Shown: piece after piece, positions 31,461 through 50,073 of the stretch | How the letters are laid out: every line of letters starts with the position of its first letter | Numbering within the stretch: position 1 is the stretch's first letter | Assembly (NCBI GenBank): GCA_025359905.1 | Contig: JANYDF010000135.1 | Coordinates: forward strand, 1 to 64,000 | Direction of reading: 5' to 3' | From: Rhodospirillales bacterium | GTDB lineage: Bacteria; Pseudomonadota; Alphaproteobacteria; Acetobacterales; Acetobacteraceae | Length of the DNA: 64,000 bases | Translations under genes and position numbers: made by a program | Notes under the pieces: generated by a model | Seen by the model: only the letters and a program-made list of their open reading frames with translations | Told to the model about the DNA's origin: nothing | Database searches by the model: none

Positions 31461-32585
31461 TTACTCCGGCGTGCCGGCGAGAGCGGCCTGGAAGCCAACT
31501 TCCGGCAGGTCCGGATGATAGACCGAGGCGAACCAGCCCGGATTCGATACCAGCGACGGCGGGAAGGCGTTGCAGCCCGCCTTCATTTCAGCGTACGACC
31601 CAGTGTCGCACACCTTTACGGTATCGTTGGTCACGGGGCCCGGCGACAGCAGAACGGTCTTTTCGACCTTCTTGCCGTCCAGAACGTCCATGGCCATCTT
31701 CAACGCGTAAGCGCCCGGCGTGATTTGCGAGCTAGCCGAGATGCTCGGCGCGCCCATCGGGCGATAGGTGCCATTGGCGCCCGTCACCTTGGTCGATGCC
31801 GGCAGCATCTGGATACGGTGGCCGTTGGAGCCTTCGCCAGCGCAGGGCTTCAGATCCTTGTCGGCGATGCCCGACTCGCTCTGCATCGAAAACGCAGTGT
31901 AGCAACCGGCCTGCATCCAAATGCCGTCGATGCTGCTCCACGGGTGCGTGGCCAGGATCTTCGTCAGTTCGGTGCGAGCGACCGCTTGGCTCCACATGCC
32001 GTTCGCCTCGGCGACGACCTTGATGCCAGGGTACTTGGCGAACACTTCGCCCGCCGCCTTGTTGCGCAGCGTATCGACCGAAACGCCAGCGACGCCGGTG
32101 ATCTGCACCACGTTGCCCTTGCCGCCCAGCTTGTCGACCAGCCACTGCGCGGTCAGCTTGCCCCACTCGTACTGGTCAACGTGCACGTTGTACGCGCAAG
32201 GCTCTTCGATCACGCCGTCGTAGGCGACAATCACGACGCCCTTGCCGCACGCCGCCTTGACGGCTTCGTTCAGCGCGGTCGGCGAGATCGGGTAGACCAC
32301 GATCGCCTTGGCACCAGCCTGCACCATCGCGTTGATCTGCTGAATCTGCTTCTGCGCGTTCGGGCCGGCGACCTGCACGCTCAGATCGACCTTGTCCTTA
32401 TAGTGAGCGGACGCTGCAATCGCCTTGACGTCGTTGGCGGCTTCGGCCTGCCAATCGTTGCCAATGTAGCTCATGCTGAGATAGACTTTATACTTCTCGG
32501 CAGCCTGGGCGGCGCCCGGCGCCGAGACGGCGGCGGCGATGCCGGCAGCCGCGGTGGCGGCGCACAGCAGATTCTTGAGCTTCAT
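31461..32585 (-). CDS. Periplasmic substrate-binding protein (type 1, sugar/autoinducer-like)
   Basis: 374 residues from ATG 32585, with GGAGG six bases upstream. Signal peptide cleaved near AAQA|AEK. The mature protein has the type-1 periplasmic-binding fold (KVYLSMSYIGNDWQAE, INAMVQAGAKAIVVYPISPTALN, GVVIVAYDG, LGGKGNVVQITGVAGVSVD). Such proteins deliver sugars or other small ligands to RbsC-type importers. No permease or ATPase gene is adjacent: it is the last gene of an operon with an acyl-CoA synthetase and a cyclase-family enzyme, which suggests a carboxylic-acid or aromatic ligand. Confidence 0.88.
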   Translation of the reverse strand: MKLKNLLCAATAAAGIAAAVSAPGAAQAAEKYKVYLSMSYIGNDWQAEAANDVKAIAASAHYKDKVDLSVQVAGPNAQKQIQQINAMVQAGAKAIVVYPISPTALNEAVKAACGKGVVIVAYDGVIEEPCAYNVHVDQYEWGKLTAQWLVDKLGGKGNVVQITGVAGVSVDTLRNKAAGEVFAKYPGIKVVAEANGMWSQAVARTELTKILATHPWSSIDGIWMQAGCYTAFSMQSESGIADKDLKPCAGEGSNGHRIQMLPASTKVTGANGTYRPMGAPSISASSQITPGAYALKMAMDVLDGKKVEKTVLLSPGPVTNDTVKVCDTGSYAEMKAGCNAFPPSLVSNPGWFASVYHPDLPEVGFQAALAGTPE

Positions 32586-32643
32586 ACTTTCCTCCCGAAA
32601 CGGAGCCATGAGCGGCCCCGGGTTAGCGTTATTGATTTCGCGT

Positions 32644-32680
32644 CCATCTGCTGCCCGCACCGTGCGGGATCTGCAGATGG
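32644..32680 (-). other. Intercistronic hairpin before the binding-protein gene
   Basis: CCATCTGC and GCAGATGG form an 8-bp outer stem enclosing CCCGC/GCGGG as an inner stem. It sits between the cyclase stop and the binding-protein start. No T-run. It is a likely mRNA-stabilising or partial-termination element that sets the ratio of binding protein to enzymes. Confidence 0.6.
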
Positions 32681-32707: not shown

Positions 32708-33688
32708 TTACTTAATTGCCACCACGTTAACCGGCGAACCGGTGGCGCCCGCCACCTTAAGCGGTGCGGCGACATACAGGAAATCCCACTGCCCGTCCTT
32801 GTGACAATCGGCGGCGAGTTCCTCGAAGTTACAAATTTCGTTGAACGCAATGCCAAGATTGCGCATCAACGAGCAGTGCAGCGGAATTTGCACGCCGACT
32901 TCCGGGTCCAGCTCGCATTCGTTGCTGATGGTGTCGGTGGCGAACGCCGGAATCTCCATCTGGTGGAACCAATCGACCAGCTCGGGGCTGTAGGTCAGGC
33001 CCGGCTCGTTGAAGTTCTTGTAAAACTCTTCCTGAGTCTGCTTCAGGCGCAGTTGCAAGAAGCCGATGCGCAGACAAAGAATGTCGTGCTTCTCGATCTT
33101 CACGCCCTGCTTCTCGGCGCAATCCAGCAGATCGGGCAGGCCGATCAGATCGCCCTTATCGAGCGCGAACTTGCCCTTGTAAGCTGCCATGTCGAGCAGC
33201 ACGCCACGCCCGACCACGCCACGCTCGGCGATTGGCAGCACCGAGGCCTTCTGCATTTCGCCCACGCTCTCAGACGCCGAGTAGCCGTTCCACAGCTTGT
33301 CGTCGTACCAGACATGGCCCAGTGCGTCGTATTGCGTCGAGCCTTGCAGAAACATCGTGATCTGGTCGTCGGCATATTCCACGCCGCCAGGAAACGCCGT
33401 CACGCGGCCATCGTCGTAGTAGCTTTTGTCGCGCACGTTGTGGCGCGTGGCGGGCACGCGGCCCGGCCAAATCGGATCGCCGGCCGGGTTGCCGATCAAC
33501 TCGCCGCAGGTAAACACTTTACCCTGACGGACAGCGCGCACACCGCGCAGAATCTCAGCGTTGGTGAGGAAGTTCAACGACCCAATTTGATCGTCAGCGC
33601 CCCAGCGGCCCCAATTGCTCGGCGAACCCGCCAGCAACTGACCGGCACGAAGCTGCTGTTCCTTAGACAATCCGGCACTGTTTGCCAC
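32708..33688 (-). CDS. Cyclase-family hydrolase (kynurenine formamidase/isatin hydrolase superfamily)
   Basis: 326 residues with a GTG start at 33688, supported by GGGGAGAG six bases upstream. The family metal motif (HxGTHxDxPxH) appears as QGSTQYDALGHVWYD, with the first His replaced by Gln; I believe this variant is usual in the long subgroup containing RWGADDQIGSLN near the N-terminus. Members hydrolyse amides, lactams or act on cyclic intermediates, often in aromatic degradation. It lies between the acyl-CoA synthetase and the binding-protein gene, all minus strand. Confidence 0.82.
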   Translation of the reverse strand: MANSAGLSKEQQLRAGQLLAGSPSNWGRWGADDQIGSLNFLTNAEILRGVRAVRQGKVFTCGELIGNPAGDPIWPGRVPATRHNVRDKSYYDDGRVTAFPGGVEYADDQITMFLQGSTQYDALGHVWYDDKLWNGYSASESVGEMQKASVLPIAERGVVGRGVLLDMAAYKGKFALDKGDLIGLPDLLDCAEKQGVKIEKHDILCLRIGFLQLRLKQTQEEFYKNFNEPGLTYSPELVDWFHQMEIPAFATDTISNECELDPEVGVQIPLHCSLMRNLGIAFNEICNFEELAADCHKDGQWDFLYVAAPLKVAGATGSPVNVVAIK

Positions 33689-33736: not shown

Positions 33737-35335
33737 TTATTGAGTCAAAGTCAGGCGCAATTCCCGCTTCAGCATCTTGCCGTTAGCGTTGCGCGGCAAG
33801 GCATTTTCCACCCGATGGAATTCTTCGGGTACCTTATAATCGGACAGTTCACGCGCGCAGTGCGCCGCAAGCTCAGCGTCCGCCACGTCATCGCGCACCA
33901 CCACGAACGCATGCACCCGCTCGCCCAGCACCGGGCAAGGCTTGGCTACCACGGCGACTTCCACCACCGCCGGATGATCGAGCAGTACGTTCTCAACCTC
34001 GGAGGCAAAAATCTTGTAGCCGCCGCGATTGATGACGTCCTTGATCCGGTCGATCACCCGCAGATAGCCGCGTTCGTCCATCATGCCCAGGTCGCCGGAT
34101 TTCCAGTACCCGGCTTTGAACTCGCGTTCGGTGGCTTCCGGATTGCCCCAGTAGCCCGGCACCACCATCGGCCCGCCGATATAGATTTCGCCGGGCGTGT
34201 TCGGCGGCACTTCGACACCGTCGAAGTCCAGCACGGTAATATGTCCGCACGGCACTTGCAGGCCGACGTATTCCTTGCGCGCCACGGCTTGATCCGGCGG
34301 CATGAACACGGCGGGCGATGTGGTTTCGGTGGACCCGTACGTGTTGATCAGCTTGAGGTTCGGCAGCTTGGCCGCAATCCGCTCCAGCGTCACTTCCGGC
34401 ATGATCGCGCCGCCGTAGCCGGAAATCCGCCACGACGACAAATCCGCACCCTCGAAATTCGGTGCCATCAGGCACAGCGCGAACATTGCCGGCACAATCA
34501 GCGTGAATGTCATGCGGTGCTTCACCGCCAGGTCGATAAACTCAGCCGCCTTGAACGACGGCATGATGATCAGCGTGCCAGCGCAATGCGCCATGGTGTC
34601 GATCATGGCGATCACGCCGGTCACATGGCTCATCGGCACGGCGATGATGCAGCGATCCTCCTCGGTCAGTTGCATCACCGTGGTGTAGTGGATCGCCGAG
34701 TGCACCATGCTGAAATTGGTCAGCATCGCGCCCTTCGGCCGCCCGGTGGTGCCCGACGTGTACAGAATGGTCGCGGTGGCTTCCTCGGTCACCGCCGTCA
34801 CCTCGGTGCGAATCCCCGACGACAGCAGATCGGCCAGCGGCACCGCATCGCCGCGCCGCACGGCAATGGCGTGCTCCAGCGCCGGCACCGCATCGCGGCC
34901 CGGAATCTTGTCGGCCAGCGAGTCCTCGTAGACCACCGCCTTGGTGCCGCAATCGGCCAGAATATGCCGGTTTTCGGCCTCCTGGTGCCGAATGCTCAGC
35001 GGCACCGAGATCGCGCCAAGCCGGGCCAGCGCGAACATAACCACGACGAATTCAATGCTGTTGCCCAGCACGAGCGCCACGCGGTCGCCGCTGACAATAC
35101 CGCGCGCCGCGAATCCGGCGGCGGCGCGGCCAGTCAATTCGTCCAATTCGCGGTAGCTAACCGATTGCACGCCACAAATCAGCGCAATGCCATCCGGGCG
35201 GCGGGCAACAGCGTTGGCAAGAATTTGATGCACGCTGGCCGGCCGGTCCACGAAGCAACGCAGCATCCGGGTACCGTTATAGTGCAGCTCGAATCTGGTA
35301 GCTGGAACCTGAATACGGTCAAACCAACTATCCAT
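33737..35335 (-). CDS. Acyl-CoA synthetase (AMP-forming)
   Basis: 532 residues from ATG 35335 (MDSWFDRIQVPATRF), with AGAGGA upstream. Adenylate-forming motifs in order: YTSGTTGRPKGA (P-loop), a GYGGA segment, NTYGSTETT, YWKSGDLG, and the C-terminal lysine in PRNANGKMLKR. It activates a carboxylic acid to its CoA thioester in the cytoplasm. It is the first gene of a minus-strand operon with the cyclase-family hydrolase and binding protein. It probably feeds the beta-oxidation operon on the other side of the GntR gene. Confidence 0.92.
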   Translation of the reverse strand: MDSWFDRIQVPATRFELHYNGTRMLRCFVDRPASVHQILANAVARRPDGIALICGVQSVSYRELDELTGRAAAGFAARGIVSGDRVALVLGNSIEFVVVMFALARLGAISVPLSIRHQEAENRHILADCGTKAVVYEDSLADKIPGRDAVPALEHAIAVRRGDAVPLADLLSSGIRTEVTAVTEEATATILYTSGTTGRPKGAMLTNFSMVHSAIHYTTVMQLTEEDRCIIAVPMSHVTGVIAMIDTMAHCAGTLIIMPSFKAAEFIDLAVKHRMTFTLIVPAMFALCLMAPNFEGADLSSWRISGYGGAIMPEVTLERIAAKLPNLKLINTYGSTETTSPAVFMPPDQAVARKEYVGLQVPCGHITVLDFDGVEVPPNTPGEIYIGGPMVVPGYWGNPEATEREFKAGYWKSGDLGMMDERGYLRVIDRIKDVINRGGYKIFASEVENVLLDHPAVVEVAVVAKPCPVLGERVHAFVVVRDDVADAELAAHCARELSDYKVPEEFHRVENALPRNANGKMLKRELRLTLTQ

Positions 35336-35462
35336 CGGCGTTTCCTCTGCCCCGCGTTGGTTAAGGCTGGACACGGTTTCTATGAACCATTTCCCTGTCG
35401 CGCCAGTACTATCGACGCCGCTTCGGACCCACCCGCCAGCGGTATCGCCCGCTTTGCTGGAA

Positions 35463-35472
35463 TGTCCGACAA
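35463..35472. promoter_or_regulatory. Candidate GntR operator, site 1
   Basis: TGTCCGACAA, 10 of 11 bases of the palindrome TTGTCnGACAA, lies 128 bases upstream of the acyl-CoA synthetase start. The same 10-mer recurs at 37369. That it is an operator is inferred from the match, the symmetry and the GntR gene between the two sites. Confidence 0.45.
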
Positions 35473-35526: not shown

Positions 35527-36276
35527 TCAGTCCTCCGAAATCGCGCCAGGCAGCGTCACCGGCACATCCAGGCTCAAATTCGCCATCTCCCAGCCGCGCC
35601 GGAAATCGACGATGTGCTTGCGCATCCACAGTTCGGCCTCGCCCGCGTCGCCTGCGGCAATGGCGGTGGCAATCTTGTCATGCGCCGCCAGCATCCGGCC
35701 CAGCGCCTGCGGCAATAGCGGGTGCAGCATCTCGAACGCCGGATACAGCAACAGGCCAACCGGCTCACGCGACAGCAGCAGCGCCGAGTTGCGGGCACCC
35801 TCGGCGATCAGCGAATGGAACTGGGTATCCAGTTCGGTTGACCACATTGCGTTGGCCAGCATGTGGCGGGTGTGGACGATATTCTCCTGTATCGCATCGC
35901 CCTGCGCCGCCGAGCGATTGGTGGCGCACAACGCCGCACAGGCCGGTTCCAGCACGCGCGCCACTTCCCACAATTCCTTGAACGTCACCTGATGCATGAT
36001 CAGCGCGCGGCTGGCGCGCGGCGCCAGATCGCTGCTGGTGGGCACCGACACGTACAGCCGCTTGCGGCCTTCGCGGCGCACGAAGCCGTCGTTCTCCAAC
36101 TGCCGTATGCCTTCGCGCACCGTCGAGCGGTTGACGCCGAACTGCTCGGCCAGTTCCGCCTCGCTCGGCAAATGGTCGCCGGGCTTCAGTTCGCCCGACA
36201 CGATGATGCGGCGAATTTCACGCGACACCACTTGGTAGGCGGCCGGCACGTTCAGCTTCTCGAATGTCAGGCCCAT
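35527..36276 (-). CDS. GntR/FadR-type transcriptional regulator
   Basis: 249 residues from ATG 36276. Winged HTH at residues 12-75 (LPSEAELAEQFGVNRSTVREGIRQLENDGFV) shown here by its core GVNRSTVREGIRQL, then an all-helical FCD-like effector domain (LWEVARVLEPACAAL ... DTQFHSLIAEGARN ... AHDKIATAIAAGD). FCD regulators usually bind short-chain organic acids or acyl-CoAs. It starts 19 bases after the quinone-oxidoreductase-like gene, so the two are probably one transcript. It sits centrally between two operons that share a near-palindromic motif. Confidence 0.9.
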   Translation of the reverse strand: MGLTFEKLNVPAAYQVVSREIRRIIVSGELKPGDHLPSEAELAEQFGVNRSTVREGIRQLENDGFVRREGRKRLYVSVPTSSDLAPRASRALIMHQVTFKELWEVARVLEPACAALCATNRSAAQGDAIQENIVHTRHMLANAMWSTELDTQFHSLIAEGARNSALLLSREPVGLLLYPAFEMLHPLLPQALGRMLAAHDKIATAIAAGDAGEAELWMRKHIVDFRRGWEMANLSLDVPVTLPGAISED

Positions 36277-36295: not shown

Positions 36296-37282
36296 TCATC
36301 CTTGCGCGGCATCCGGCAACAGCACCACCTTACCCACCGTGTCGCGGGACGCGATGGCTTGCAGCGCCCGCTCGGCCTGATCGAGCGGGAACACATCACG
36401 CACCAGCGGCCGCACCACGCCGACCTTATGCAACGCAAAAATGTCACGGAACAATTGCGCGACGATCTCCGGGTGGTGGGCGCGATATTCGCCCCAATAA
36501 ACGCCCAGCGCCGCCGCATTCTTCAGCAGCAGCCGGTTGGCCGGCAGTTCGGCGATGCTGCCACCGGCGAAGCCCACGATCACCAGCCGCCCGCCCCAGG
36601 CGAGGCAGCGCAGACTCTCCTTGGTAACGTCGCCGCCCACCGGATCGATCACCACATCCACGCCGCGCCCGCCGGTCTCCCGGCGCACGGCAGCCGCAAT
36701 CGGCTCGGCGCGGTAGTCGATCACCGCATCGGCGCCCAGTTGCAGGCACAGCGCGATCTTGTCCGCCCCGCCTGCGGTGGCAATCACGCGGGCGCCCCAA
36801 TGTTTTGCCAACTGAATGGCCGCCGACCCCACGCCGCCCGCGCCGGCATGCACCAGCACGGTCTCGCCCGGCTGCACATTGGCGCGCTGGCGCAACGCCA
36901 GGAATGCGGTCGGATAGACAATCGGCAGCCCGGCGGCTTCCAGCGCGGTCATTTCGCCCGGCACCGGCTCAGACCCATTGCGCGGCACCACGACATATTC
37001 CGCATAGCCGCCCAGATCGAGCATCGCGCAAATCCGATCGCCGGCCTTGTACGGGCTGTCAGGCCCCGGCTGTTCGACGATGCCGACCACTTCGATGCCC
37101 GGCGTGAACGGCACCGGCGGCTTCACCTGATATTGGCCGCGGATCATCAGCGTATCGAGAAAGTTGGCCCCGGCCGCTTCCACCCGAACCAAGCTGCTAT
37201 CGCCGCGCGCTTGCGGCGTGGGGATGTCCCGCCAGTGCATCCGGCCCTCGGCCGATACACTCTCGACCACCCATGCCCGCAT
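36296..37282 (-). CDS. NADPH:quinone oxidoreductase-like MDR protein
   Basis: 328 residues of the medium-chain dehydrogenase family, zinc-free quinone-oxidoreductase branch. GroES-like N-terminal half (GANFLDTLMIRGQYQ, PFTPGIEVVGIVE), Rossmann loop HAGAGGVGSAAIQLAK, and the family segment DVVIDPVGGD. No structural-zinc Cys cluster is visible. It probably reduces an enone or enoyl-CoA. It is encoded upstream of the GntR gene and divergent from the kinase/dehydrogenase operon. Confidence 0.87.
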   Translation of the reverse strand: MRAWVVESVSAEGRMHWRDIPTPQARGDSSLVRVEAAGANFLDTLMIRGQYQVKPPVPFTPGIEVVGIVEQPGPDSPYKAGDRICAMLDLGGYAEYVVVPRNGSEPVPGEMTALEAAGLPIVYPTAFLALRQRANVQPGETVLVHAGAGGVGSAAIQLAKHWGARVIATAGGADKIALCLQLGADAVIDYRAEPIAAAVRRETGGRGVDVVIDPVGGDVTKESLRCLAWGGRLVIVGFAGGSIAELPANRLLLKNAAALGVYWGEYRAHHPEIVAQLFRDIFALHKVGVVRPLVRDVFPLDQAERALQAIASRDTVGKVVLLPDAAQG

Positions 37283-37368
37283 TCCCGTTCCCCCTGGTGC
37301 CGCCCTGGTTGGGGCGCGCTGCCGCTGACCGGCATTGACGTTCCGGGGAGACTATTCGATAGTGGGTC

Positions 37369-37378
37369 TGTCCGACAA
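37369..37378. promoter_or_regulatory. Candidate GntR operator, site 2
   Basis: TGTCCGACAA lies in the 186-base divergent region, 86 bases from the quinone-oxidoreductase start and 90 bases from the phosphotransferase start. It is identical to the 10-mer at 35463. It could control both directions. Confidence 0.45.
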
Positions 37379-37468
37379 TCGGATATCTTGCCGAAGCGCG
37401 GCGTCGGTCCCCTTTCAGCAAGCCCGGGCAGTCGGCGATGCGTGTCGAGGCGGAGCGTCCCAACCAAA

Positions 37469-38551
37469 ATGACCGTAGAATCGCCTCCGTCCACACCAGC
37501 GGACGGCAGCACACACCACGCCAGCGGCTTTGAGTTCGACCCAGAAGTGCTGGAGCGCTTCTTGCGCGCGCAGCTTCCAGGCGAATCCGGTGTGTTTTCA
37601 CTTGAGCGCATCGCAGGCGGCCAGTCCAACCCGACGTTCTTCGCCAGCCTCGGCAACCGCCAGATGGTGGTCCGCAAGAAGCCCGCTGGCGACGTGCTGC
37701 CCTCCGCCCATGCCGTTGACCGCGAGTACCGCGCCATCACCGCACTCGCCGCCACCAATGTGCCAGTGCCGCGCGCCCTGCTGTTCTGCGACGACACCTC
37801 AGTGGTGGGCACGCCGTTCTATGTCATGGAGCGGCTGGAAGGCCGGGTGTTCCACGACGCTGTGCTGCCGGGCGTGCCGCCAGCCGAACGCACGGCGATG
37901 TATTACGCCATGGCGGAAACCCTGGCGAAATTGCACGACGTCGATCCGGCGGTCATCGGGCTCGGCGATTTCGGCCGCGCGGGCAACTACTTCGAACGGC
38001 AAATCCGCCGCTGGACCACGCAGTACCAACTGGCGCGCTGGCGCGATCTGCCCGACCTCGACCTGATCACCGCGTGGCTGCCCGAGAACCTGCCGCCGGA
38101 AGAACCGGCGCGTATCTGCCACGGCGATTTCCGCATCGGCAATCTGATGTTCCACGCCAGCGAGCCGCGCGTGATCGGGGTGCTGGACTGGGAACTCAGC
38201 ACGCTGGGCCAACCACTGGCCGACGTCGCGTTCAGCGCGCTCGGCTGGGAAACCTACCCTGAAGAATACGGTGGTCTGCGCGGGCTGGATCATGCGGCGC
38301 TTGGAATCCCAAAGCGCGAGGACTATCTGGCGCGTTACGACGCCAGCCGCACCACCCCAGTGCCGCACAAGGTCGAAGCGTTTCACACCATCTTCGCGAT
38401 GTTCCGCTTCGCCGTGATCTTCGAAGGCATCGCCGCCCGCGCCAGGGCAGGCAGCGCTGCCGCCGACAACGCCGCCGCCGTGGGCGAACTTGCGCCGATT
38501 TTCGCGCGCCGGGCGGTTCAAACCATGCAGGCCGCGTCGAGCGCCGCCTGA
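37469..38551 (+). CDS. APH-fold phosphotransferase, ACAD10/11- and LvaA-like
   Basis: 360 residues from ATG 37469. Aminoglycoside-phosphotransferase/choline-kinase fold: glycine-rich ERIAGGQSNPTFF, Lys pair in VVRKKP, catalytic HGDFRIGN and metal-binding LDWELSTLG. The VLDWELSTLGQPLADVA block and the partner acyl-CoA dehydrogenase gene (19 bases downstream) match the kinase/dehydrogenase pairs fused in human ACAD10/11. Similar proteins (LvaA in Pseudomonas levulinate degradation) phosphorylate 4-hydroxyacyl-CoA. That substrate is inference here. Confidence 0.85.
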   Translation: MTVESPPSTPADGSTHHASGFEFDPEVLERFLRAQLPGESGVFSLERIAGGQSNPTFFASLGNRQMVVRKKPAGDVLPSAHAVDREYRAITALAATNVPVPRALLFCDDTSVVGTPFYVMERLEGRVFHDAVLPGVPPAERTAMYYAMAETLAKLHDVDPAVIGLGDFGRAGNYFERQIRRWTTQYQLARWRDLPDLDLITAWLPENLPPEEPARICHGDFRIGNLMFHASEPRVIGVLDWELSTLGQPLADVAFSALGWETYPEEYGGLRGLDHAALGIPKREDYLARYDASRTTPVPHKVEAFHTIFAMFRFAVIFEGIAARARAGSAAADNAAAVGELAPIFARRAVQTMQAASSAA

Positions 38552-38570
38552 ACCAAGCGGAGCCGCTCCC

Positions 38571-39794
38571 ATGAATTTCGAATTCCCCACCGAAACCGCC
38601 GCGTTGCAAGCGCGCGTCAGCCGCTTCGTCGGACAACATGTCGCCCCCGCCGACGCCGCGTGGCAGGCCGAAGCCAAAGCCGGGCGCGTGCCGCTGGCGG
38701 TGATGGAGCCGATCAAGCAAGCCGCTCGCGCCGAAGGCTTGTGGAACCTGTTTCTGCCCAGCCTGCGCGACGACCAGCCCGGCACACGGCTGACCAATCT
38801 GCAATACGCTCCGCTGGCCGAAATTATGGGCCGCTTTCCCTGGGCGGCCGAGGTGTTCAACTGCAACTCGCCCGACAGCGGCAACATGGAGGTCTTGCAG
38901 TTATGCGCCTCGCCCGAGCAGCGCGCGGAGTGGCTCAACCCGCTGCTCGACGGCACCATCCGCTCGTGCTTCTCAATGACCGAGCCGGGCACTGCGTCGT
39001 CCGACCCAACCACGTTGCAAACCACAATAACACGTGAGGGCAATGGCTACCGCGTGCGCGGCCGTAAGTGGTTTTCCACCGGCGCGCTGCACCCGAACTG
39101 CAAATTCGCCATCGTGATGGGCCGCTCGGATATCGAGGAAAAGCTGCCGCCGCATCAGCGCTATTCGATGATTCTGGTGCCGTACGGCACGCCCGGCCTG
39201 CAAATCATCCGCAGCGTGCCAATCATGAATCATCATTCGCCGGAAGGCCACTGCGAGATCGACTACGACGTGCTGGTACCGGCTTCGAACCTGCTCGGCG
39301 AGGAAGGCGACGGCTTCACCATCGCGCAAGCGCGGCTTGGGCCGGGACGCATTCATCACTGCATGCGCACTATTGGCCAGTGTGAACTGGCGCTGGAATT
39401 GATGGTGGCGCGGGCGAAAAGCCGCAGCGCGTTCGGCGGCAAGCTGTCCAGCTTTGCCAATATTCAAGACTGGATTGCCGAATCGCGCATCGAGATCGAT
39501 CAGGCGCGGCTGCTGATTCTGCGTGCGGCCTGGACGATGGATAAGTCCGGCAACAAGGCAGCGCGCACCGACGTGTCGGCGATCAAGATCGTCGCCGCAC
39601 GGCTGCAAACCCGCGTGCTGGATCGCGCGATCCAGGTATTCGGCGCAGCAGGCCTGACCGACGACACGCCGCTGGCCTATTTGTGGACTTGGGGCCGCGC
39701 ACTGCGCTTCATCGACGGGCCGGACGAAGTGCATCTGCGCACGGTCGCCAAGGCGGAAATGCGCAAGACCGACGCGCCGTCCAAGCACCACTGA
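38571..39794 (+). CDS. Acyl-CoA dehydrogenase, ACAD10/11-type
   Basis: 407 residues. FAD-binding segments CFSMTEPGTASSDPT and KWFSTGALHP, with the subgroup marker FNCNSPDSGNMEVL that is typical of ACAD10/11-type enzymes, and the C-terminal domain with RIEIDQARLLILRAA and QVFGAAGLTDDTPLA. In the 4-hydroxy acid pathway an enzyme of this type eliminates phosphate from the 4-phosphoacyl-CoA made by the partner kinase and gives an acyl-CoA that enters beta-oxidation. Simple dehydrogenation is the alternative. Confidence 0.9.
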   Translation: MNFEFPTETAALQARVSRFVGQHVAPADAAWQAEAKAGRVPLAVMEPIKQAARAEGLWNLFLPSLRDDQPGTRLTNLQYAPLAEIMGRFPWAAEVFNCNSPDSGNMEVLQLCASPEQRAEWLNPLLDGTIRSCFSMTEPGTASSDPTTLQTTITREGNGYRVRGRKWFSTGALHPNCKFAIVMGRSDIEEKLPPHQRYSMILVPYGTPGLQIIRSVPIMNHHSPEGHCEIDYDVLVPASNLLGEEGDGFTIAQARLGPGRIHHCMRTIGQCELALELMVARAKSRSAFGGKLSSFANIQDWIAESRIEIDQARLLILRAAWTMDKSGNKAARTDVSAIKIVAARLQTRVLDRAIQVFGAAGLTDDTPLAYLWTWGRALRFIDGPDEVHLRTVAKAEMRKTDAPSKHH

Positions 39795-39831: not shown

Positions 39832-40968
39832 ATGACCGCCTCGGCTTTCATCGCGGGCTATGTTCGCACCCCGTTCACCCCGGCCCGCAAAGGCGCACTG
39901 GCCGGGATGCGCCCCGACGATCTTGGCGCCTTCGCGGTGCGTGCGCTGCTGGAACGCACCGGCGTTCCGGGCGGTGACATTGAAGACGTACTGTGGGGTT
40001 GCGCCTTCCCAGAGGGCGAGCAGGGCTTGAATATCGGCCGCATCGTCGGCTTGCTCGCCGGACTGCCGGTGACGTCATCTGGTGCGACTATCAACCGTTG
40101 GTGTGGATCGGCGGTGCAGGCGATTCAGATAGCTGGTGGTATGATCGCGATGAACGCCGGTGAGGCGTTTGTCGCCGGCGGCACCGAATGCATGTCGCGC
40201 GTGCCAATGATGGGCTTCAACGCGCTGCCCAATCCGAAGTGGTCCGAGCAGGAAGTGCTCGACTGGGTCAATGTCGGCCTGACGGCCGAACGCGTGGCCG
40301 CGCAATACGGTCTGACCCGTGAGGATCAGGACCGCTTCGCGCTGCACAGCCACACCAAAGCGCTGGCCGCGCAACAGGAAGGCCGTCTGGCGGCCGAAAT
40401 CGTCCCGATCCCGGCCGGCAACGCGTTGGTGAGCGACGACGGTTGCGTGCGGCAAACCTCGTTGTCCAAGCTGGCGGATTTGAAACCGGCGTTCAAAATC
40501 GATGGCACCGTGACGGCGGGCAGTTCCTCGCCGATGACCGACGGCGCCACCGCCGTGCTTGTGTGCAGCGAGGCTTACCTAAACCGAACCGGCCTCGCAC
40601 CGCTGGCGCGCATCCGCAGCTTCGCGGTGTCCGGCTGCGAACCCGGCGTGATGGGCCTCGGCCCGATTGCCTCCACCCGCAAAGCGCTGGCACGCGCTGG
40701 GCTGACCATCGGCGACATCGACATCATCGAAATGAACGAGGCATTCGCCGCGCAAGCCGAGGCCTGCCGCCGTGATCTCAACATCCCCGCTGAAAAGCTG
40801 AATATCGATGGCGGCGCCATTGCCATCGGCCACCCGCTCGGCGCCACCGGCGCACGGCTGGTCGGCAAGGCGGCGCAACTGCTGCAACGCGAAAAGGGCC
40901 GCTATGCGCTGGCCACCCAGTGCATCGGCGGCGGCATGGGCATCGCGATGATCCTGGAAGCGGCTTGA
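39832..40968 (+). CDS. Acetyl-CoA acyltransferase (thiolase)
   Basis: 378 residues. Nucleophilic Cys in INRWCGSAVQAI, the His motif GHPLGATGARL, and the second Cys in ATQCIGGGMGIA. NEAFAAQAE is also present. It cleaves 3-ketoacyl-CoA to acetyl-CoA plus a shortened acyl-CoA (or the reverse). It is third in the plus-strand operon after the kinase and acyl-CoA dehydrogenase, and is followed 10 bases later by the bifunctional beta-oxidation gene, so degradation is the likely direction. Confidence 0.93.
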   Translation: MTASAFIAGYVRTPFTPARKGALAGMRPDDLGAFAVRALLERTGVPGGDIEDVLWGCAFPEGEQGLNIGRIVGLLAGLPVTSSGATINRWCGSAVQAIQIAGGMIAMNAGEAFVAGGTECMSRVPMMGFNALPNPKWSEQEVLDWVNVGLTAERVAAQYGLTREDQDRFALHSHTKALAAQQEGRLAAEIVPIPAGNALVSDDGCVRQTSLSKLADLKPAFKIDGTVTAGSSSPMTDGATAVLVCSEAYLNRTGLAPLARIRSFAVSGCEPGVMGLGPIASTRKALARAGLTIGDIDIIEMNEAFAAQAEACRRDLNIPAEKLNIDGGAIAIGHPLGATGARLVGKAAQLLQREKGRYALATQCIGGGMGIAMILEAA

Positions 40969-40978
40969 GGCACATCCG

Positions 40979-43237
40979 ATGACAACCACCGTCACAGCCG
41001 CCGCCGTGATCGGCGCGGGATCCATGGGCGCGGGCATCGCCGCGCAATTCGCCAATGCCGGTGTGCCGGTGCTGCTAATGGATGTTTCCACCGCAGCAGC
41101 CGAAGCAGGCATCGCTCGGCAGTTGAAGTCGGGCGGCTTCATGCATCCTGGCCGGGCGGCGCTGGTCACGCCGTGCAACACCACGGACGATCTCGCCAAG
41201 CTGGCGGACGTGGATTGGATCGTCGAAGCGGTGGTCGAGAACCTTGCGATCAAACGCGAACTATTCGCCCGCGTCGATGCGGTGCGCGCGCCGCATTCGG
41301 TGATTTCGTCGAACACGTCCACCATCCCGCTAGCCAAACTCATCGAAGGCCAAAGCGAACGGTTCGCCCACGACTGCCTGATCACGCATTTCTTCAACCC
41401 GCCGCGCGTGATGCAGTTGCTGGAAGTGGTGACAGGGCCCGCAACATCGCCCGATGCAGCCGCCTGGGTGACGGCGGCCGGCACCGATGTGCTCGGAAAG
41501 ACCGCGCTGGCCTGCCGCGACACGCCCGGCTTCATTGCCAACCGCATCGGTTGCTTCTGGATCGCCCTGGCGATCATCGAAGCCATCAACGCCGGACTGA
41601 GCGTCGAAGAAGCTGACGCCATCGTTGGCGCGCCGTTCCGGATTCCGCCCATCGGCGCATTCGGTGTGCTCGACTTGATCGGCGTCGATTTGGTTGAGCA
41701 TGTCTGGGGCAGCTTGCAATCGCTGCTGCCGAAATCCGACCTGCTGTGGTCGTACGACCTCGGCGCGCAACCGCTGATCCAGCAAATGATCGCGCAGAAA
41801 CTGCTCGGCCGGAAATCCGGCAGCGGCTTCTATCGGGTCAACCGCGACGGCGCCAAGCGCACCCGCGACATTCTGGATTTCGCCACCTGCACCTATCGCC
41901 CGGAACGCAAAGTCGCGTTGGCGGCACTCACCGCTGCCGGGCGCGACCTGCGGAAATTATGCGAGCAAGACGACACCGTTGGCCGCTTCGCCTGGCGCGT
42001 GCTGTCGCAACTGGTGGTCTATGCGGCCACCGTCGGGCCGGACATCGCGGGCAGCGTGGCCGATGTCGATCTCGGCATGCGCCTCGGCTACGGCTGGGCG
42101 GAGGGACCGTTCCAGATCGCCGACCGCGCAGGTGCGGCCTGGATCGCCGGACGCCTGCGCGCGGCGGGCGAAACCGTGCCGCCGCTGCTCGCCAAAGCAG
42201 CCGAGGCGGGCGGTTTCTACGCTGCCAGCACAGCGCCTTTGCCAAGCACGCCGCTGGTGCGGCTCAGCCGCAGCATCGTGTTCGACAACCCCAGCGCTGC
42301 GCTGCATGACATTGGTGACGGTGTGGCGTGCCTCGAACATCGCACCAAGATGAACATCTTCGACAATCAGGTGTTCGACGCCATCGGCGTTGCCTTGGCG
42401 GACGTGCCGAAGCATTTCCGCGCTTTGGTGATCGGCAGCGACCATGCGCGCGCGTTCTCGGCTGGGGCGGATCTTGGCTGGTATCTCGCGCAAGTGAAGA
42501 ACAGCGATTGGGCGGCGCTGGAGGCCTTCCAGATTGCCGGGCAGGAGCGGTTTCTGGCGCTGAAATACGCGCCGTTCCCCGTCGTGGCGGCGGCGTTCGG
42601 CTTGGCGCTGGGCGGTGGATGCGAGGTGCTGCTGCATTGCCATGAGATCGTGGCGCATGCCGAGTTGAACGTGGGCCTCCCGGAATCCAGCGTCGGCCTG
42701 ATCCCTGGTTGGGGCGGCTGTACGCAAATGCTATTGCGCTGGACTCGTCAGCCCGGCGGCAAACGTGGCCCGCTGGCACCGGCCAGCGAGGCGTTTTCGC
42801 AAATCCTGCGCGCGAAAGTCTCCAGTTCAGCACTGGAAGCGCGCGACATGGCGATCCTGCGCGCGCAAGATCCTATCGTGATGAACCGGCAAAACCTGCT
42901 CGCCGCCGCCAAAGCCCGTGCGCTGGCGTTGGCCGATGCCGGTGTCGCTGCGAAGCAGCCTGATCTGCTGTATCTGCCCGGCCCGTCCGGCCGCGCCGCG
43001 ATGATGGTAGCAGCGCAAACCGAACACGCCGCCGGTCGCTTGTCGGCCAACGACCTCGCTATCGCTGAGGGCTTGGCCACTGTGATGAGCGGCGGCGACA
43101 CCGATTCGCTGACGCCGCTGACCGAGCGGCAAGTGTGTGCGCTGGAACGCGAGGCGGTGCTGACGGTGGCGCGCCGCCCGGCCACCATCGCGCGTATCGA
43201 GCACATGCTGGCCACGGGCAAGCCGTTGCGCAATTAG
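40979..43237 (+). CDS. Bifunctional 3-hydroxyacyl-CoA dehydrogenase / enoyl-CoA hydratase (FadN-order)
   Basis: 752 residues. The N-terminal 3-hydroxyacyl-CoA dehydrogenase has AVIGAGSMGAGIAAQ and the catalytic region ITHFFNPPRVMQLLEVV. The C-terminal crotonase domain (from about residue 430) has an oxyanion-hole segment and a catalytic Glu in VGLPESSVGLIPGWGG. The order is the reverse of E. coli FadB and like FadN-type proteins. It performs hydration and NAD-dependent oxidation in beta-oxidation. GAGG lies before the ATG; the amidohydrolase gene follows after six bases. Confidence 0.93.
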   Translation: MTTTVTAAAVIGAGSMGAGIAAQFANAGVPVLLMDVSTAAAEAGIARQLKSGGFMHPGRAALVTPCNTTDDLAKLADVDWIVEAVVENLAIKRELFARVDAVRAPHSVISSNTSTIPLAKLIEGQSERFAHDCLITHFFNPPRVMQLLEVVTGPATSPDAAAWVTAAGTDVLGKTALACRDTPGFIANRIGCFWIALAIIEAINAGLSVEEADAIVGAPFRIPPIGAFGVLDLIGVDLVEHVWGSLQSLLPKSDLLWSYDLGAQPLIQQMIAQKLLGRKSGSGFYRVNRDGAKRTRDILDFATCTYRPERKVALAALTAAGRDLRKLCEQDDTVGRFAWRVLSQLVVYAATVGPDIAGSVADVDLGMRLGYGWAEGPFQIADRAGAAWIAGRLRAAGETVPPLLAKAAEAGGFYAASTAPLPSTPLVRLSRSIVFDNPSAALHDIGDGVACLEHRTKMNIFDNQVFDAIGVALADVPKHFRALVIGSDHARAFSAGADLGWYLAQVKNSDWAALEAFQIAGQERFLALKYAPFPVVAAAFGLALGGGCEVLLHCHEIVAHAELNVGLPESSVGLIPGWGGCTQMLLRWTRQPGGKRGPLAPASEAFSQILRAKVSSSALEARDMAILRAQDPIVMNRQNLLAAAKARALALADAGVAAKQPDLLYLPGPSGRAAMMVAAQTEHAAGRLSANDLAIAEGLATVMSGGDTDSLTPLTERQVCALEREAVLTVARRPATIARIEHMLATGKPLRN

Positions 43238-43243: not shown

Positions 43244-44665
43244 ATGTGCATCGTCTGCGGCTCCGGCTCGGAACATCTGCTGCGCGCCATCGTTAACCGG
43301 CACGCCGCCCCGCGCCGGGCCAGCCGGCTGACCGCGCGGGCGGTTGCACCCGAGGTGCAACCCACCCTCGACCCCGGTACAACCGAAGGGCTGACCGGCT
43401 CCGCCGACGTGATCCTGCGCGGCGGTCCGATCATCACCATGGCGGGCACGCCAGATGCCGAGGCCATCGCGGTGCGCGCCGGGCGCATCCAGGCGGTGGG
43501 GACGGCAGACATTGTTATGCCGCATCGCGGACGGCTGACGCGGGTGATCGACCTGCAAGGCCGCGCATTATTGCCGGGCTTCATCAACGCGCATTGGCAC
43601 CTGCCGTTCACGCTGCTGTGCGATTGGGTGGACGCGTCGTCTGGATCGAACGCGTTGGCCGAGGCCGTTGCCAAGGCTGCGCCGGGCGAGTGGATTGTAC
43701 TGAGCGGCGCATCGGCGGAGCTGGAAATTTCGGCGCCAGACAATCCGGTAATCGTCACAGACCAGAACAGCAACATTTTGGCGGGCAACAGTCTGGCCGC
43801 CGGAGATGAAGGCCTGCCCGGCCATGTTTCGGCGCTGCTCGACCGCTTTGCCGCGCGGCTGGCTGTGTCCACCGAGCCGATGCAGGCGCGGCTACTGCGG
43901 CTGTTCGCGCAATCCGCAGCCGGGGGCGTGACGTGCCTGCGTGTGTGCGGCATCGGCACGCTGTCCGGTGCGGGCGACCTGGATTTGCTGCACGCGGCCA
44001 TGGCCGAAGCGCCGCGCTTGCGGCTGCGCGGCACGCTGGATTGCAGCCTGCTGAGTGAGTGGAACGACCTGCAATTGCGGCCGGGGTTCGGCAACGACGT
44101 GTTTCGCGTGGATACCGTGTCGGCCTGGCTTTCCGGTGCCGCTGCGTTGCGCGACGCCAAACATGCAGGCTGGCACGTCACGTTGCACGCCAGCGATGCG
44201 GCGCAGGTGGATCAGGCATTGGCCTGCTTCGATGATTTCACCGCGCGCGATGCAGGCGACGGCATCGAGTGCCGCAGCGCGCCACCGGCAGACTCGCAGC
44301 GCCGCGCTGCGAACTTGGGCTTGTCGCTGGGGCTGACTGTCAGCGAGGGCGAATCGTACGGACAGGTTGCCACGGCAGCGCCGCTCTCGCTCGGCCTGGA
44401 TGCCGCCGTGGGTGCGTCGCTGCCGCTGGCGATGCTGGCGCAGGCTGCGGCCGATGGCATGGACATGGCGCAGGCGCTAGCCGCGCTGACCATCGGCGCG
44501 GCAAGGCGCTGCGGCATGGATGCCATCACCGGCAGTCTGCAACGCGGCAAATACGCCGACTTCGTGTTTCTCGACCGCGACCCACGCAGTGTGGCAGCGC
44601 ATGACGTGGCGGCACTGCGCTGCACCGCCACGTGGTTGAACGGCCTGGATGTGTTCAGGGCGTAG
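43244..44665 (+). CDS. Amidohydrolase-family (YtcJ-like) protein with a missing metal His
   Basis: 473 residues, shorter than most YtcJ-like proteins (roughly 530-560). ILRGGPIITMAG and LLPGFINAHWHL give the start and the HxH pair; HVTLHASDAAQ fits the strand-5 His and LSLGLDAA the strand-8 Asp. The strand-6 motif, usually RIEHAQ, reads GIECRSA, so that His is lost. It carries an unusual N-terminal MCIVCGSG Cys pair. It closes the beta-oxidation operon. It may be inactive, metal-poor or changed in function; the substrate is unknown. The stop overlaps mmsB by 11 bases. Confidence 0.75.
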   Translation: MCIVCGSGSEHLLRAIVNRHAAPRRASRLTARAVAPEVQPTLDPGTTEGLTGSADVILRGGPIITMAGTPDAEAIAVRAGRIQAVGTADIVMPHRGRLTRVIDLQGRALLPGFINAHWHLPFTLLCDWVDASSGSNALAEAVAKAAPGEWIVLSGASAELEISAPDNPVIVTDQNSNILAGNSLAAGDEGLPGHVSALLDRFAARLAVSTEPMQARLLRLFAQSAAGGVTCLRVCGIGTLSGAGDLDLLHAAMAEAPRLRLRGTLDCSLLSEWNDLQLRPGFGNDVFRVDTVSAWLSGAAALRDAKHAGWHVTLHASDAAQVDQALACFDDFTARDAGDGIECRSAPPADSQRRAANLGLSLGLTVSEGESYGQVATAAPLSLGLDAAVGASLPLAMLAQAAADGMDMAQALAALTIGAARRCGMDAITGSLQRGKYADFVFLDRDPRSVAAHDVAALRCTATWLNGLDVFRA

Positions 44666-45548
44666 CGGCAACACCGCGCAACATGCGGATGATGGCAGAG
44701 AAATCCTCGCCGCCATGCCCGAGCTTTTCAAACAGCGAGTACAATTGCGCCGCCTGCGCGCCCATCGGTGTTGAAGCGCCGCTGGCCAACGCGGCTTCCT
44801 GCGACAGCTTCAAATCCTTCAGCATCAGCGCCGCCGCAAAGCCCGGCTGATAGTCGCGGTTGGCCGGTGATGCAGGCACCGGGCCGGGCACCGGGCAATA
44901 GCTGGTCAGCGACCAGCACTGGCCCGACGACGTGGACGCCACGTCGAACAGCGCCTGATGCGACAGGCCGAGCCGTTCGGCCAGCACGAAGGCTTCGCAC
45001 ACCCCGGCCATCGAAATGCCGAGGATCATGTTGTTGCAAATCTTCGCCGCCTGACCGGCGCCGGCACCGCCGCAATGCACGATGCGCTTGCCCATCTTCT
45101 GCAACACCGGCTCGCCGCGCGCGAACGCGTTCGCCGCACCGCCCACCATGAAAGTGAGCGTGCCAGCGGCAGCCCCGCCGGTGCCGCCGGACACCGGGGC
45201 ATCCAGCGTCAGACAGCCTTTGTCCGCCAGCAACGCGTGCGCCTTGCGGGCGCTGTCCACATCAATTGTCGATGAGTCGATCAGCAATGTTCCGGCTGGC
45301 ACAACCGCCGCGAGTTCACTCCACACCGACAGCACATGCCGCCCGGCTGGCAGCATGGTGACGATAACATCCGCACCAGCCGCCGCCTCGGCGACCGAGG
45401 CGGCAATGATCACACCGCGCGCTTGCGCTGCGTCACAGGACGCTGGCACCAGATCGAAGCCGGTCACCCGATAGCCCGCCGCCACCAGATTGGCCGCCAT
45501 CGGGCCGCCCATGTTGCCCAGGCCGATGAAGCCGATTGTCCCTGCCAT
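44655..45548 (-). CDS. mmsB: 3-hydroxyisobutyrate dehydrogenase
   Basis: 297 residues. NAD loop GFIGLGNMGGPMA, substrate segment DAPVSGGTGGA, active-site Lys in GQAAKICNNM, and KDLKLSQEAA near the end. It oxidises 3-hydroxyisobutyrate to methylmalonate semialdehyde in valine breakdown. It is last in a three-gene minus-strand set with an isobutyryl-CoA dehydrogenase-like enzyme (19 bases upstream) and mmsA, which together support the assignment. Confidence 0.93.
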   Translation of the reverse strand: MAGTIGFIGLGNMGGPMAANLVAAGYRVTGFDLVPASCDAAQARGVIIAASVAEAAAGADVIVTMLPAGRHVLSVWSELAAVVPAGTLLIDSSTIDVDSARKAHALLADKGCLTLDAPVSGGTGGAAAGTLTFMVGGAANAFARGEPVLQKMGKRIVHCGGAGAGQAAKICNNMILGISMAGVCEAFVLAERLGLSHQALFDVASTSSGQCWSLTSYCPVPGPVPASPANRDYQPGFAAALMLKDLKLSQEAALASGASTPMGAQAAQLYSLFEKLGHGGEDFSAIIRMLRGVAATP

Positions 45549-45567
45549 GTTGGTTCCCGCCGTTCGA

Positions 45568-46713
45568 TTATTGGTCTTTGCCGATCACGGCGCGCGCCAC
45601 GATCAGGCGCATGATTTCGTTGGTGCCTTCGAGGATTTGATGCACCCGCAGATCGCGCACGATTTTTTCGATGCCGTAGTCGGCCAGATAGCCGTAGCCG
45701 CCATGCATCTGCAACGCGCCGTTGGCAACCTCGAAGCCCACGTCTGTGACAAACCGCTTGGCCATCGCGCATAGCTTGGTGGCCTCGGTGGCCTTCGCAT
45801 CGAGTGCCGTCGCCGCGCGCCACAGAAACGTGCGGGCCACTTCCAATTCGGTGGCGTAGTCGGCAATACGGAAGCGCAACGCCTGAAAATCGCTCAACGC
45901 CGAACCGAACGCGCGGCGCTGGCGTGCATACGCAATGGCGCGGTCGAGAGCGGCTTGCGCGCCGCCCAGTGAGCAGGCCGCGATGTTGATGCGCCCGCCG
46001 TCCAGTCCGCTCATGGCGATCGAGAAGCCCTTGCCCTCCGGCCCCAGCACATTGGCGGCGGGCACGCGCGCGCCGTCGAAGATCACCGCGCGAGTCGGCT
46101 GAGCATTCCAGCCCATCTTCTTTTCATTGGCGCCGAACGACACGCCGGGCGTGTCCTTTTCGACGATGAAGCAGGAAATGCCGCTCGCCCCTTCGGCCCC
46201 GGTACGCGCCATCACCAAGTAAACGTCGCTAACCCCAGCGCCGGAGATGAACTGCTTTTCACCGGTCAGCACATAATGCGCGCCATCGCGCACTGCGCGG
46301 GTGCGCAACGCCGCCGCATCGGAGCCGGCCGAGGCTTCTGTCAGACAGTAGCTGGAAAGTTGGTCCATGGTCAGCAGACCGGGCAGCCAGTGCTGGCGCT
46401 GCGCTTCGGTGCCGTAGCGGTCGATCATCCAGGCGCACATATTATGGATCGACAGATACGCAGCGACGGTCGGGCAACCTTGCGACAACGCCTCGAAAAT
46501 CAGCGCCGCATCGAGCCGCGTCAGCCCGGTGCCGCCGATGTCGTCGCGCACATAGATGCCCGCGAGTCCGAGCGCTGCGGCCTTGCGCAGCGTGGGCACC
46601 GGAAAGTGCTTGGTCTGATCCCACTCGACCGCGTGCGGGGCGAGTTCCTCGGCGGCAAAATTGGCGGCCATGTCACGGATGGCGGCCTGCTCTTCGGTCA
46701 GACTGAAATCCAT
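45568..46713 (-). CDS. Acyl-CoA dehydrogenase, probable isobutyryl-CoA dehydrogenase (ACAD8-like)
   Basis: 381 residues from ATG 46713 (MDFSLTEEQAAIRDMA). CLTEASAGSDAAAL and KQFISGAGVSDVYLVM at the FAD site, and catalytic Glu in QILEGTNEIMRLI near the C-terminus. The sequence pattern resembles ACAD8. It removes two hydrogens from isobutyryl-CoA to give methacrylyl-CoA and passes electrons to ETF. Neighbours mmsA and mmsB fix the pathway as valine degradation; a dedicated hydratase and thioesterase are not in this set. Confidence 0.9.
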   Translation of the reverse strand: MDFSLTEEQAAIRDMAANFAAEELAPHAVEWDQTKHFPVPTLRKAAALGLAGIYVRDDIGGTGLTRLDAALIFEALSQGCPTVAAYLSIHNMCAWMIDRYGTEAQRQHWLPGLLTMDQLSSYCLTEASAGSDAAALRTRAVRDGAHYVLTGEKQFISGAGVSDVYLVMARTGAEGASGISCFIVEKDTPGVSFGANEKKMGWNAQPTRAVIFDGARVPAANVLGPEGKGFSIAMSGLDGGRINIAACSLGGAQAALDRAIAYARQRRAFGSALSDFQALRFRIADYATELEVARTFLWRAATALDAKATEATKLCAMAKRFVTDVGFEVANGALQMHGGYGYLADYGIEKIVRDLRVHQILEGTNEIMRLIVARAVIGKDQ

Positions 46714-46785
46714 GCTGATCCCACTAAGTTGGTCCGTTGGCACGGCACCGTGGCCGGATCAGGTCCGGCCACGGCGTGAGGTGTG

Positions 46786-49306: not shown

Positions 49307-50073
49307 GTTTCGAAATTGGCGTCCACGCCAATGGATTGGCCGGTGATGTGCTTGGCCTGATCCGAGGCCAGGAAGACCGCGACCGCCGCGATCTCGTCCA
49401 TCTCGATCATGCTGTGCATCGAGATATTGTGCAGCACGAATGGCAGGTATTGCTCCAGCGTCATGCCGCGCGCCTTGGCCTGCTCGTCCATCACCCGCCG
49501 CCCGCGCGGGCCGTTGACGAGGCCGGGCAGGATGGCGTTGACACGCACGTTCAAGCCACCGAGCTCGACAGCCAGCACATCGGTGAAGCCGCGCACGGCA
49601 TATTTCGACGCCGAATACGGTGAGCGCATCGGCATCCCGATCCGCCCGGCCACCGAGGACATGTTGATGATGACGCCGCCGCCCTGGGCGCGGAACAGCG
49701 GCACCGCCGCGCGCACCGCGTAGAACTGGCCGGTGACGTTGACCGCCATGGTGCGGTTCCACTCGTCGTCGGTGATGTCCTCGACCGCCTTGGTCGGGCC
49801 GGAAATGCCGGCGTTGTTGACCAGCACATCGAGGCCGCCAAAACTTGCCTTTAGTTCGTCGAACACCCGCGCCACGTCGGCTGAGTCCGACACATCGGCG
49901 CGCACCGCCAGCATCTGCGGCGCTTGCTGCGCGCAATCGGCTAACGCCGCCTCATCGACATCGCACACCGCGACGCGCGCACCTTCGGCGAGGAAGCGAT
50001 CCGCCATCACGCGGCCGATGCCGCCAGCGCCTGCGGTGATCAGAACGCGCTTGCCGTTGAGGCCGAGATCCAT
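49282..50073 (-). CDS. SDR-family oxidoreductase
   Basis: 263 residues with complete classical motifs: TAGAGGIGR cofactor loop, Asp in CDVDEA indicating NAD preference, NNAG, Ser in INMSSVAG, YSASK, and the end DQAKHITGQSIGVDANFE. It is intact, but lies on the same strand just downstream of the broken diol dehydratase locus and the dehydrogenase stub, so it may be a survivor of the same catabolic cluster. The substrate is unknown. Confidence 0.88.
   Translation of the reverse strand: MDLGLNGKRVLITAGAGGIGRVMADRFLAEGARVAVCDVDEAALADCAQQAPQMLAVRADVSDSADVARVFDELKASFGGLDVLVNNAGISGPTKAVEDITDDEWNRTMAVNVTGQFYAVRAAVPLFRAQGGGVIINMSSVAGRIGMPMRSPYSASKYAVRGFTDVLAVELGGLNVRVNAILPGLVNGPRGRRVMDEQAKARGMTLEQYLPFVLHNISMHSMIEMDEIAAVAVFLASDQAKHITGQSIGVDANFETYRAPMTT

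Follow-up and report, generated by a model that had tools for sequence, protein, structure and literature searches.

A kinase and acyl-CoA dehydrogenase pair of the ACAD10/11 type in a probable 4-hydroxy acid catabolic regulon of a Rhodospirillales bacterium

The window analysed here is a stretch of 64,000 nucleotides, positions 1 to 64,000 of contig JANYDF010000135.1 (assembly GCA_025359905.1, Rhodospirillales bacterium). It contains two adjacent genes, encoding a kinase of the APH fold and an acyl-CoA dehydrogenase (ACAD) of the type found in ACAD10 and ACAD11. These begin a plus-strand wing of five genes, from which a minus-strand wing diverges. The features are as follows.

37469–38551, plus strand: APH-fold kinase of the ACAD10/11 type, predicted 4-hydroxyacyl-CoA 4-kinase (ATG at 37469, stop at 38551; Pfam APH, 5e-56)
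38571–39794, plus strand: ACAD10/11-type acyl-CoA dehydrogenase, predicted 4-phosphoacyl-CoA phosphate eliminase (ATG at 38571; 2wbi, E = 6e-107; phosphate pocket)
39832–40968, plus strand: thiolase (acetyl-CoA C-acyltransferase; TIGR01930, above cut-off)
40979–43237, plus strand: 3-hydroxyacyl-CoA dehydrogenase/enoyl-CoA hydratase fusion, 3HCDH first and ECH second (Pfam 3HCDH_N, 3HCDH, ECH_1)
43244–44665, plus strand: amidohydrolase-superfamily enzyme, last gene of the wing (Pfam Amidohydro_3, Amidohydro_1; the true start is possibly internal)
36296–37282, minus strand: PIG3-type NAD(P)H quinone oxidoreductase (TIGR02824, 279 bits, below the cut-off of 296.8)
35527–36276, minus strand: GntR/FCD-family regulator, predicted to bind the palindrome (Pfam GntR, FCD; loci with an orthologue carry the palindrome)
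33737–35335 (open frame to 35506), minus strand: AMP-forming acyl-CoA synthetase (Pfam AMP-binding)
32708–33688, minus strand: PF04199 cyclase-family hydrolase, predicted metal-dependent esterase or lactonase (Pfam; QxxxQxDxxxH motif)
31461–32660, minus strand: periplasmic binding protein (Pfam PF13407)
37368–37378, no strand: palindromic operator-like site CTGTCCGACAA, in the promoter region between the divergent PIG3 and kinase genes (37283–37468)
35462–35472, no strand: palindromic operator-like site ATGTCCGACAA, upstream of the synthetase, with the identical 11 bases there in a congener (G001)

The adjacency of kinase and dehydrogenase asserted in an earlier, sequence-only reading of this DNA is borne out to the base, the two genes being 19 bp apart. 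The neighbours that it named are likewise all present, namely the PF04199 hydrolase, the AMP-binding synthetase, the thiolase, the fusion enzyme and the PF13407 binding protein. The first four genes of the plus-strand wing are separated by gaps of 19, 37 and 10 bp, and the two wings diverge from a 186-bp gap between PIG3 and the kinase. The model NF052272 spans the whole fusion protein with a score under its cut-off, and the order of the domains is presumably that of FadN. The open reading frames come from a crude caller that was used for listing alone, and several of the loci compared below end at contig ends. Given the E-values and the adjacency of kinase and ACAD in relatives, the identification of the two proteins from their sequences is not a matter of chance.

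The dehydrogenase matches four Pfam acyl-CoA dehydrogenase models (N-terminal, middle and two C-terminal). Its best matches among PDB sequences are human ACAD11 (2wbi), followed by mouse ACAD11 (8v3u and 8v3v), and its identity is 47% with human ACAD11 and 34% with the counterpart from an lva-like operon. The marker from which its type had been proposed is confirmed as FNCNSPDSGNMEVL, with FNCQAPDTGNMEVL as the counterpart in human 2wbi. According to Rashan et al. (PMC12440821), R626, H634 and R637 of ACAD11 hold the 4-phosphate in a model and D753 is the catalytic base, and nonconservative changes at R626, H634 and R637 hit elimination hardest. The pocket R626/R631/H634/R637/D753 is complete in the window protein, reading RRHRD. 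The same letters occur in 63 rows (45 distinct sequences) of an 80-row alignment that includes redundant loci, these being the window, human ACAD11 and the rows best matching the window ACAD. The pocket is missing in the other 17 rows, all of which best match the window's ordinary ACAD. Ten further loci in the genome of the window match the ACAD at no more than 32% identity, and none of the nine scored (L010 was left out) has the pocket. It is kept even in ACADs that share no more than 35–38% identity with that of the window and are encoded close to kinases of the window kinase's clade, in Sulfitobacter, Chelatococcus and other bacteria. The pocket has two main spellings, RLGPGRIHHCMRT in the window and ACAD11, and a type ending ARLTHCMRW in the lva-like operon and others. 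Carrying the elimination residues of ACAD11, the window protein is predicted to be a 4-phosphoacyl-CoA phosphate eliminase.

The best PDB sequence matches of the kinase are 3dxp from Ralstonia (2e-95) and mouse ACAD11 (1e-69). It is 46% identical to 3dxp, 39% to the kinase domain of mouse ACAD11 and 24% to the kinase of the lva-like operon. Its key residues read RERDND, as they do in 81 of 89 aligned kinases including mouse ACAD11; the catalytic Asp and Asn (D220 and N225) are kept, together with two arginines described as contacting coenzyme A (CoA). R176, D220 and N225 agree with the published numbering, while the Arg beside the αC Glu (R86 in the paper) was matched by description, the number in the PDB chain disagreeing. 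Phylogeny, which the earlier reading had named as a check, does not place the kinase in another substrate clade. In a tree of the 89 kinases, made by a quick search with support from the Shimodaira–Hasegawa-like approximate likelihood ratio test (SH-aLRT) only, without bootstrap, the window kinase falls in a set of 39 rows (SH-aLRT 99) nested in a set of 70 (99) that holds mouse ACAD11, on a long branch, and 3dxp. The likeness to ACAD10/11 extends over the complete ACAD pocket, the kinase residues and the kinase tree, and the kinase is predicted to act on 4-hydroxyacyl-CoA. Kinases of the clade with no pocket ACAD within 6 kb are those of L080, L081, L083–L087, L090, L180, L183, L185, L187 and L188, where L080 and L183 lie near the end of their stretch. 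In one relative, a Rhodoferax metagenome-assembled genome found by a kinase scan of named genome contigs (L006:8695–11077), a clade kinase adjoins an ACAD of the ordinary type, and the surrounding genes, judged from open reading frames alone, resemble those of anaerobic aromatic degradation.

The small protein LvaB had been noted as absent, and this extends to the whole genome (97.6% complete), in which DUF6285, which we take to be LvaB, has no match. This identification is ours and was made by operon position, not by comparison with the Pseudomonas putida sequence. On a Stutzerimonas plasmid the order is PrpR-type regulator, kinase, DUF6285, histidine phosphatase, ACAD, short-chain dehydrogenase/reductase (SDR), acyl-CoA synthetase, DUF485 and symporter; this matches the lva genes as listed, with a 12-kDa LvaB, in PMC6692424, with DUF6285 in the slot of LvaB. 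In the literature searched, no paper mentions DUF6285. The domain is present in 28 of 120 relatives, and a kinase lies 75–559 bp from it in 25 of the 26 places examined (of 29). These stretches are L216:5911–12951 and L168, L171–L174, L195–L211, L213 and L214. The Arg before the αC Glu is lost in 24 of the 25 DUF6285-adjacent kinases and kept in all 83 others including that of the window; the 83 were chosen for their similarity to the window kinase, apart from mouse ACAD11 and 3dxp, which were included by hand. Four genomes have a window-like kinase and DUF6285 on one contig, at least 268 kb apart. The absence of LvaB fits, since DUF6285 pairs with kinases lacking the Arg that the window kinase keeps, and from this correlation LvaB likely helps kinases that have lost their own CoA contact. 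Most of the 25 kinases are outside the tree; the six included are distant from the group of the window kinase and form one clade, so that the Arg pattern may reflect a single evolutionary event.

The regulator is associated with the palindrome TTGTCSGACAA. Seven exact copies occur in the seven loci outside the window that have an orthologue of the GntR protein, five of which carry it, where 0.03 were expected from first-order simulations. None is found in 106 other loci (at least 5 kb each, 1.41 Mb) in which tblastn showed no GntR orthologue at 40% identity or more, and two of these controls (L096 and L189) hold two 10-base near-copies in total. The exact copies come from three lineages and 10-base copies from two more; L090, L180 and L184 are of one genus, and L140 is of the window's own. 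As the palindrome was first spotted in the window and in several loci that then entered the count, the count was blind for the control loci and L184 alone. The 9-base core TGTCSGACA occurs 14 times in 0.19 Mb (eight GntR loci) compared with 11 times in 1.41 Mb. It occurs twice in the 64-kb window, where 0.27 are expected, and only at the sites at 35462, upstream of the synthetase, and 37368, in the gap between PIG3 and kinase, which read TGTCCGACAA. We infer from these sites that the GntR/FCD protein controls both wings. Given the near-palindromes at both promoters and the limitation of the palindrome to loci with a GntR orthologue, the two wings are probably one regulon.

Similar neighbourhoods recur in relatives. 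A locus from another family of the class (G423, L178) has the order enoyl-CoA hydratase, thiolase, 3-hydroxyacyl-CoA dehydrogenase, binding protein, kinase, ACAD, PIG3, synthetase and GntR/FCD. Identities to the window are 41% for the thiolase, 55% for the kinase, 67% for the ACAD, 65% for PIG3, 47% for the synthetase and 44% for the regulator, and the binding protein is of another family (PF13458, not PF13407). Three palindromes lie there, upstream of the hydratase, of the run beginning with binding protein and kinase, and of the regulator. This parallel cluster and the shared palindrome back the link that had been proposed between the pair and the synthetase, thiolase and hydroxyacyl-CoA enzymes. 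Shorter runs comprise GntR, kinase, ACAD and synthetase (G060), a branched-chain-type ABC transporter, kinase, ACAD and synthetase (G254), and GntR, kinase, ACAD and PIG3 (a Salipiger plasmid). The congener G001 has on one contig the binding protein (78%), hydrolase (90%), synthetase (76%) and GntR (82%), with the same 11 bases as the window at the synthetase. Another contig holds the end of the thiolase and the fusion gene (72%), followed by the amidohydrolase as in the window. Both pieces stop at contig ends, so that a gap is possible. Near the position of the window's PIG3, G001 has a hydratase of the MaoC/MFE-2 type (L140:9613–10446).

The PF04199 hydrolase has a sole PDB match, 5ibz (E = 4e-49), with which its sequence QGSTQYDALGH aligns as the motif QxxxQxDxxxH. 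PMC5341072 describes this motif in MGS0169, a metal-dependent esterase, and in trans-dienelactone hydrolase. A lactone precursor is therefore plausible, and an enzyme of this sort acting on a γ-lactone would produce precisely a 4-hydroxy acid. No lactone route via such a kinase was recognised in the literature searched, as judged from titles and the beginnings of abstracts. The binding protein has no adjoining ATPase or permease in the window; an ABC ATPase and permease follow it in G001 (L140:1024–5878), and the window's genome has 28 related ATPase matches, the best at 56%. Two other regions of the window are of note. Directly past the plus-strand wing (44655–48282) is a block resembling valine catabolism, with a 3-hydroxyisobutyrate dehydrogenase, an ordinary ACAD and what we take to be an aldehyde-dehydrogenase-like gene, and at 50765–52456 lie fused large and medium diol/glycerol dehydratase subunits (Pfam Dehydratase_LU and Dehydratase_MU).

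Taken together, these genes probably form a regulon for the catabolism of a 4-hydroxy carboxylic acid, which may enter the cell, or be produced, in the form of a γ-lactone or ester. Opening of this lactone or ester would fall to the PF04199 hydrolase, and the synthetase would yield the 4-hydroxyacyl-CoA. The kinase would phosphorylate the 4-hydroxyl group, LvaB being unneeded as its own CoA-contact arginines are kept. The ACAD would then use flavin adenine dinucleotide and its catalytic Asp to eliminate phosphate, a step without net oxidation that yields the 2-enoyl-CoA. Hydration and oxidation of this product would be the work of the fusion enzyme, the thiolase would release acetyl-CoA and a shortened acyl-CoA, and the GntR/FCD regulator would govern both wings via TTGTCSGACAA. 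The basis for this scheme is the genes, residues, phylogeny, recurring neighbourhoods and palindrome enrichment presented here, and for the kinase and elimination steps the enzyme work of others on homologues; what we infer is the identity and chain length of the substrate, the lactone step, the independence from LvaB and the binding of the regulator. The suggestion that a 4-hydroxy or 4-keto acid is activated, phosphorylated and stripped of phosphate to feed β-oxidation is thus supported for the 4-hydroxy acid, while for a 4-keto acid the cluster lacks a reductase. The 4-hydroxy acid fits better because no LvaD-like reductase is present; Pfam finds no SDR in either wing.

Several observations weigh against this scheme. 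The window has no exact TTGTCSGACAA, just five copies with one mismatch, of which three are elsewhere than the two promoter sites, at 38626 and 43040 (within genes of the plus-strand wing) and at 55153. Among the 38 loci of the kinase clade other than the window, a pocket ACAD lies within 6 kb in 24 and a synthetase in 11 (with at least 40% identity in 3), GntR, PIG3 and thiolase are each found in five, and the PF04199 hydrolase, amidohydrolase and binding protein in none. In the nearest relative with the pair (G028; 77% and 83%), a valine-type ACAD comes after the two genes, and the thiolase, fusion and amidohydrolase genes that follow them in the window are missing from this place. G001 yielded no kinase or ACAD of the window type, and a kinase (45%) and a pocket ACAD (52%), both of the common type, on a third contig could serve there. 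The link of the hydrolase to the block is seen within one genus only, and the lactone or cyclic precursor hinted at earlier, which has this link and the motif behind it, is one of the weaker points. Against the pairing of DUF6285 with kinases, PMC6692424 reports for P. citronellolis a homologue of LvaA in whose surroundings no lvaB was found.

The least unlikely of the alternatives is that the same chemistry acts on a special 4-hydroxyacyl-CoA, with a branched, terpenoid or aromatic side chain, prepared by PIG3 and the amidohydrolase. In some loci the pair is again accompanied by PIG3 and GntR, relatives have paa genes, TRAP transporters, an esterase and an FMO-like flavoprotein in their vicinity, and the valine-catabolism-like block follows the plus-strand wing; the neighbours however vary between loci, which argues for broad use rather than a single substrate. 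Next in likelihood, and again improbable, the pair could be a separate 4-hydroxy-acid unit to which the thiolase, fusion and amidohydrolase genes and the hydrolase and binding-protein genes are chance neighbours. The modules are indeed separate in G028 and perhaps in G001, and the hydrolase, amidohydrolase and binding protein are absent beside the clade kinases, but the palindrome stands at both promoters, the genes are in tandem with gaps of 10–37 bp, and G423 has its parallel cluster.

Less probable still is a route of the levulinate type, in which a reductase encoded outside the cluster would act on the CoA ester of a 4-keto acid and the same pair would then take over. An SDR lies within 6 kb in 19 of the 38 kinase-clade loci, and the window has one at 49282–50073, but this is on the opposite strand about 9.5 kb beyond the ACAD, and the kinase shares little identity with that of the lva-like operon. 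A true lva operon was rejected, as LvaB, LvaD, LvaR and LvaFG were sought in the cluster and none was found. An ordinary dehydrogenase beside a kinase for an unrelated substrate such as an antibiotic is highly improbable; for all the APH fold and weak NCBIfam matches to aminoglycoside kinases, the best of these scores 36 bits against a cut-off of 205, and both a resistance kinase and a conventional dehydrogenase were rejected, the latter by the full phosphate pocket and a catalytic Asp in place of Glu.

A wider proposal built on the 4-hydroxy acid regulon is tentative, and we put it forward as a possibility that may well not hold. The locus could be a dedicated regulon unlike lva, leading from γ-lactone or 4-hydroxy acid to β-oxidation, in which a GntR/FCD protein acts through TTGTCSGACAA to bring under joint control uptake, a PF04199 lactonase, CoA activation, a kinase that does not need LvaB, the eliminase and a private β-oxidation set. 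Bacterial 4-hydroxyacyl-CoA kinases would then be of two kinds, one with its own CoA-holding arginine and one that has lost it and depends on LvaB/DUF6285. If true, this would provide a self-contained, LvaB-free genetic unit for the breakdown of 4-hydroxy acids and perhaps γ-lactones, useful for biomass-derived compounds and for research on human ACAD10/11. The unexplained role of LvaB would become a simple question, whether it substitutes for the lost CoA-binding arginine of the kinase, and the palindrome offers a handle on further members of the regulon and on inducers.

In comparison with known systems, the pair shares with mammalian ACAD10 and ACAD11 the kinase fold and residues, the ACAD pocket, the catalytic Asp and the proposed two-step chemistry. 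The mammalian proteins have kinase and ACAD in one chain, whereas the window encodes two proteins, clustered with genes for activation and β-oxidation. Separate proteins also occur in Burkholderia, whose kinase and ACAD orthologues each replace the matching ACAD10 domain in vitro (Paquay et al., PMC11342911); the available text of that paper mentions no LvaB in the assay. Of the sequences compared here, 3dxp (46%) is the nearest stand-in for the kinase. The Pseudomonas lva operon likewise combines kinase, ACAD and acyl-CoA synthetase, and an lva-like ACAD has the same five pocket letters. Unlike lva, the window has no LvaB (DUF6285), no adjoining LvaD and no DUF485/symporter (LvaFG); its regulator is GntR/FCD where lva has the sigma-54 type LvaR, a PF13407 binding protein stands against LvaFG, and its kinase and ACAD are of another sub-type. 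The resemblance to the Pseudomonas levulinate genes that had been remarked upon is loose, the ACAD being closer to human ACAD11. The hydrolase shares with MGS0169 and trans-dienelactone hydrolase the modified motif Gln-x-x-x-Gln-x-Asp-x-x-x-His. We know of no described case of a PF04199 esterase beside a 4-hydroxy-acid module. The pair thus belongs to the known ACAD10/11-type kinase/eliminase kind, and its chemistry is already known with separate bacterial proteins, since the Burkholderia orthologues replaced the ACAD10 domains in vitro; the regulon with palindrome, PIG3 and possible lactonase is a new variant.

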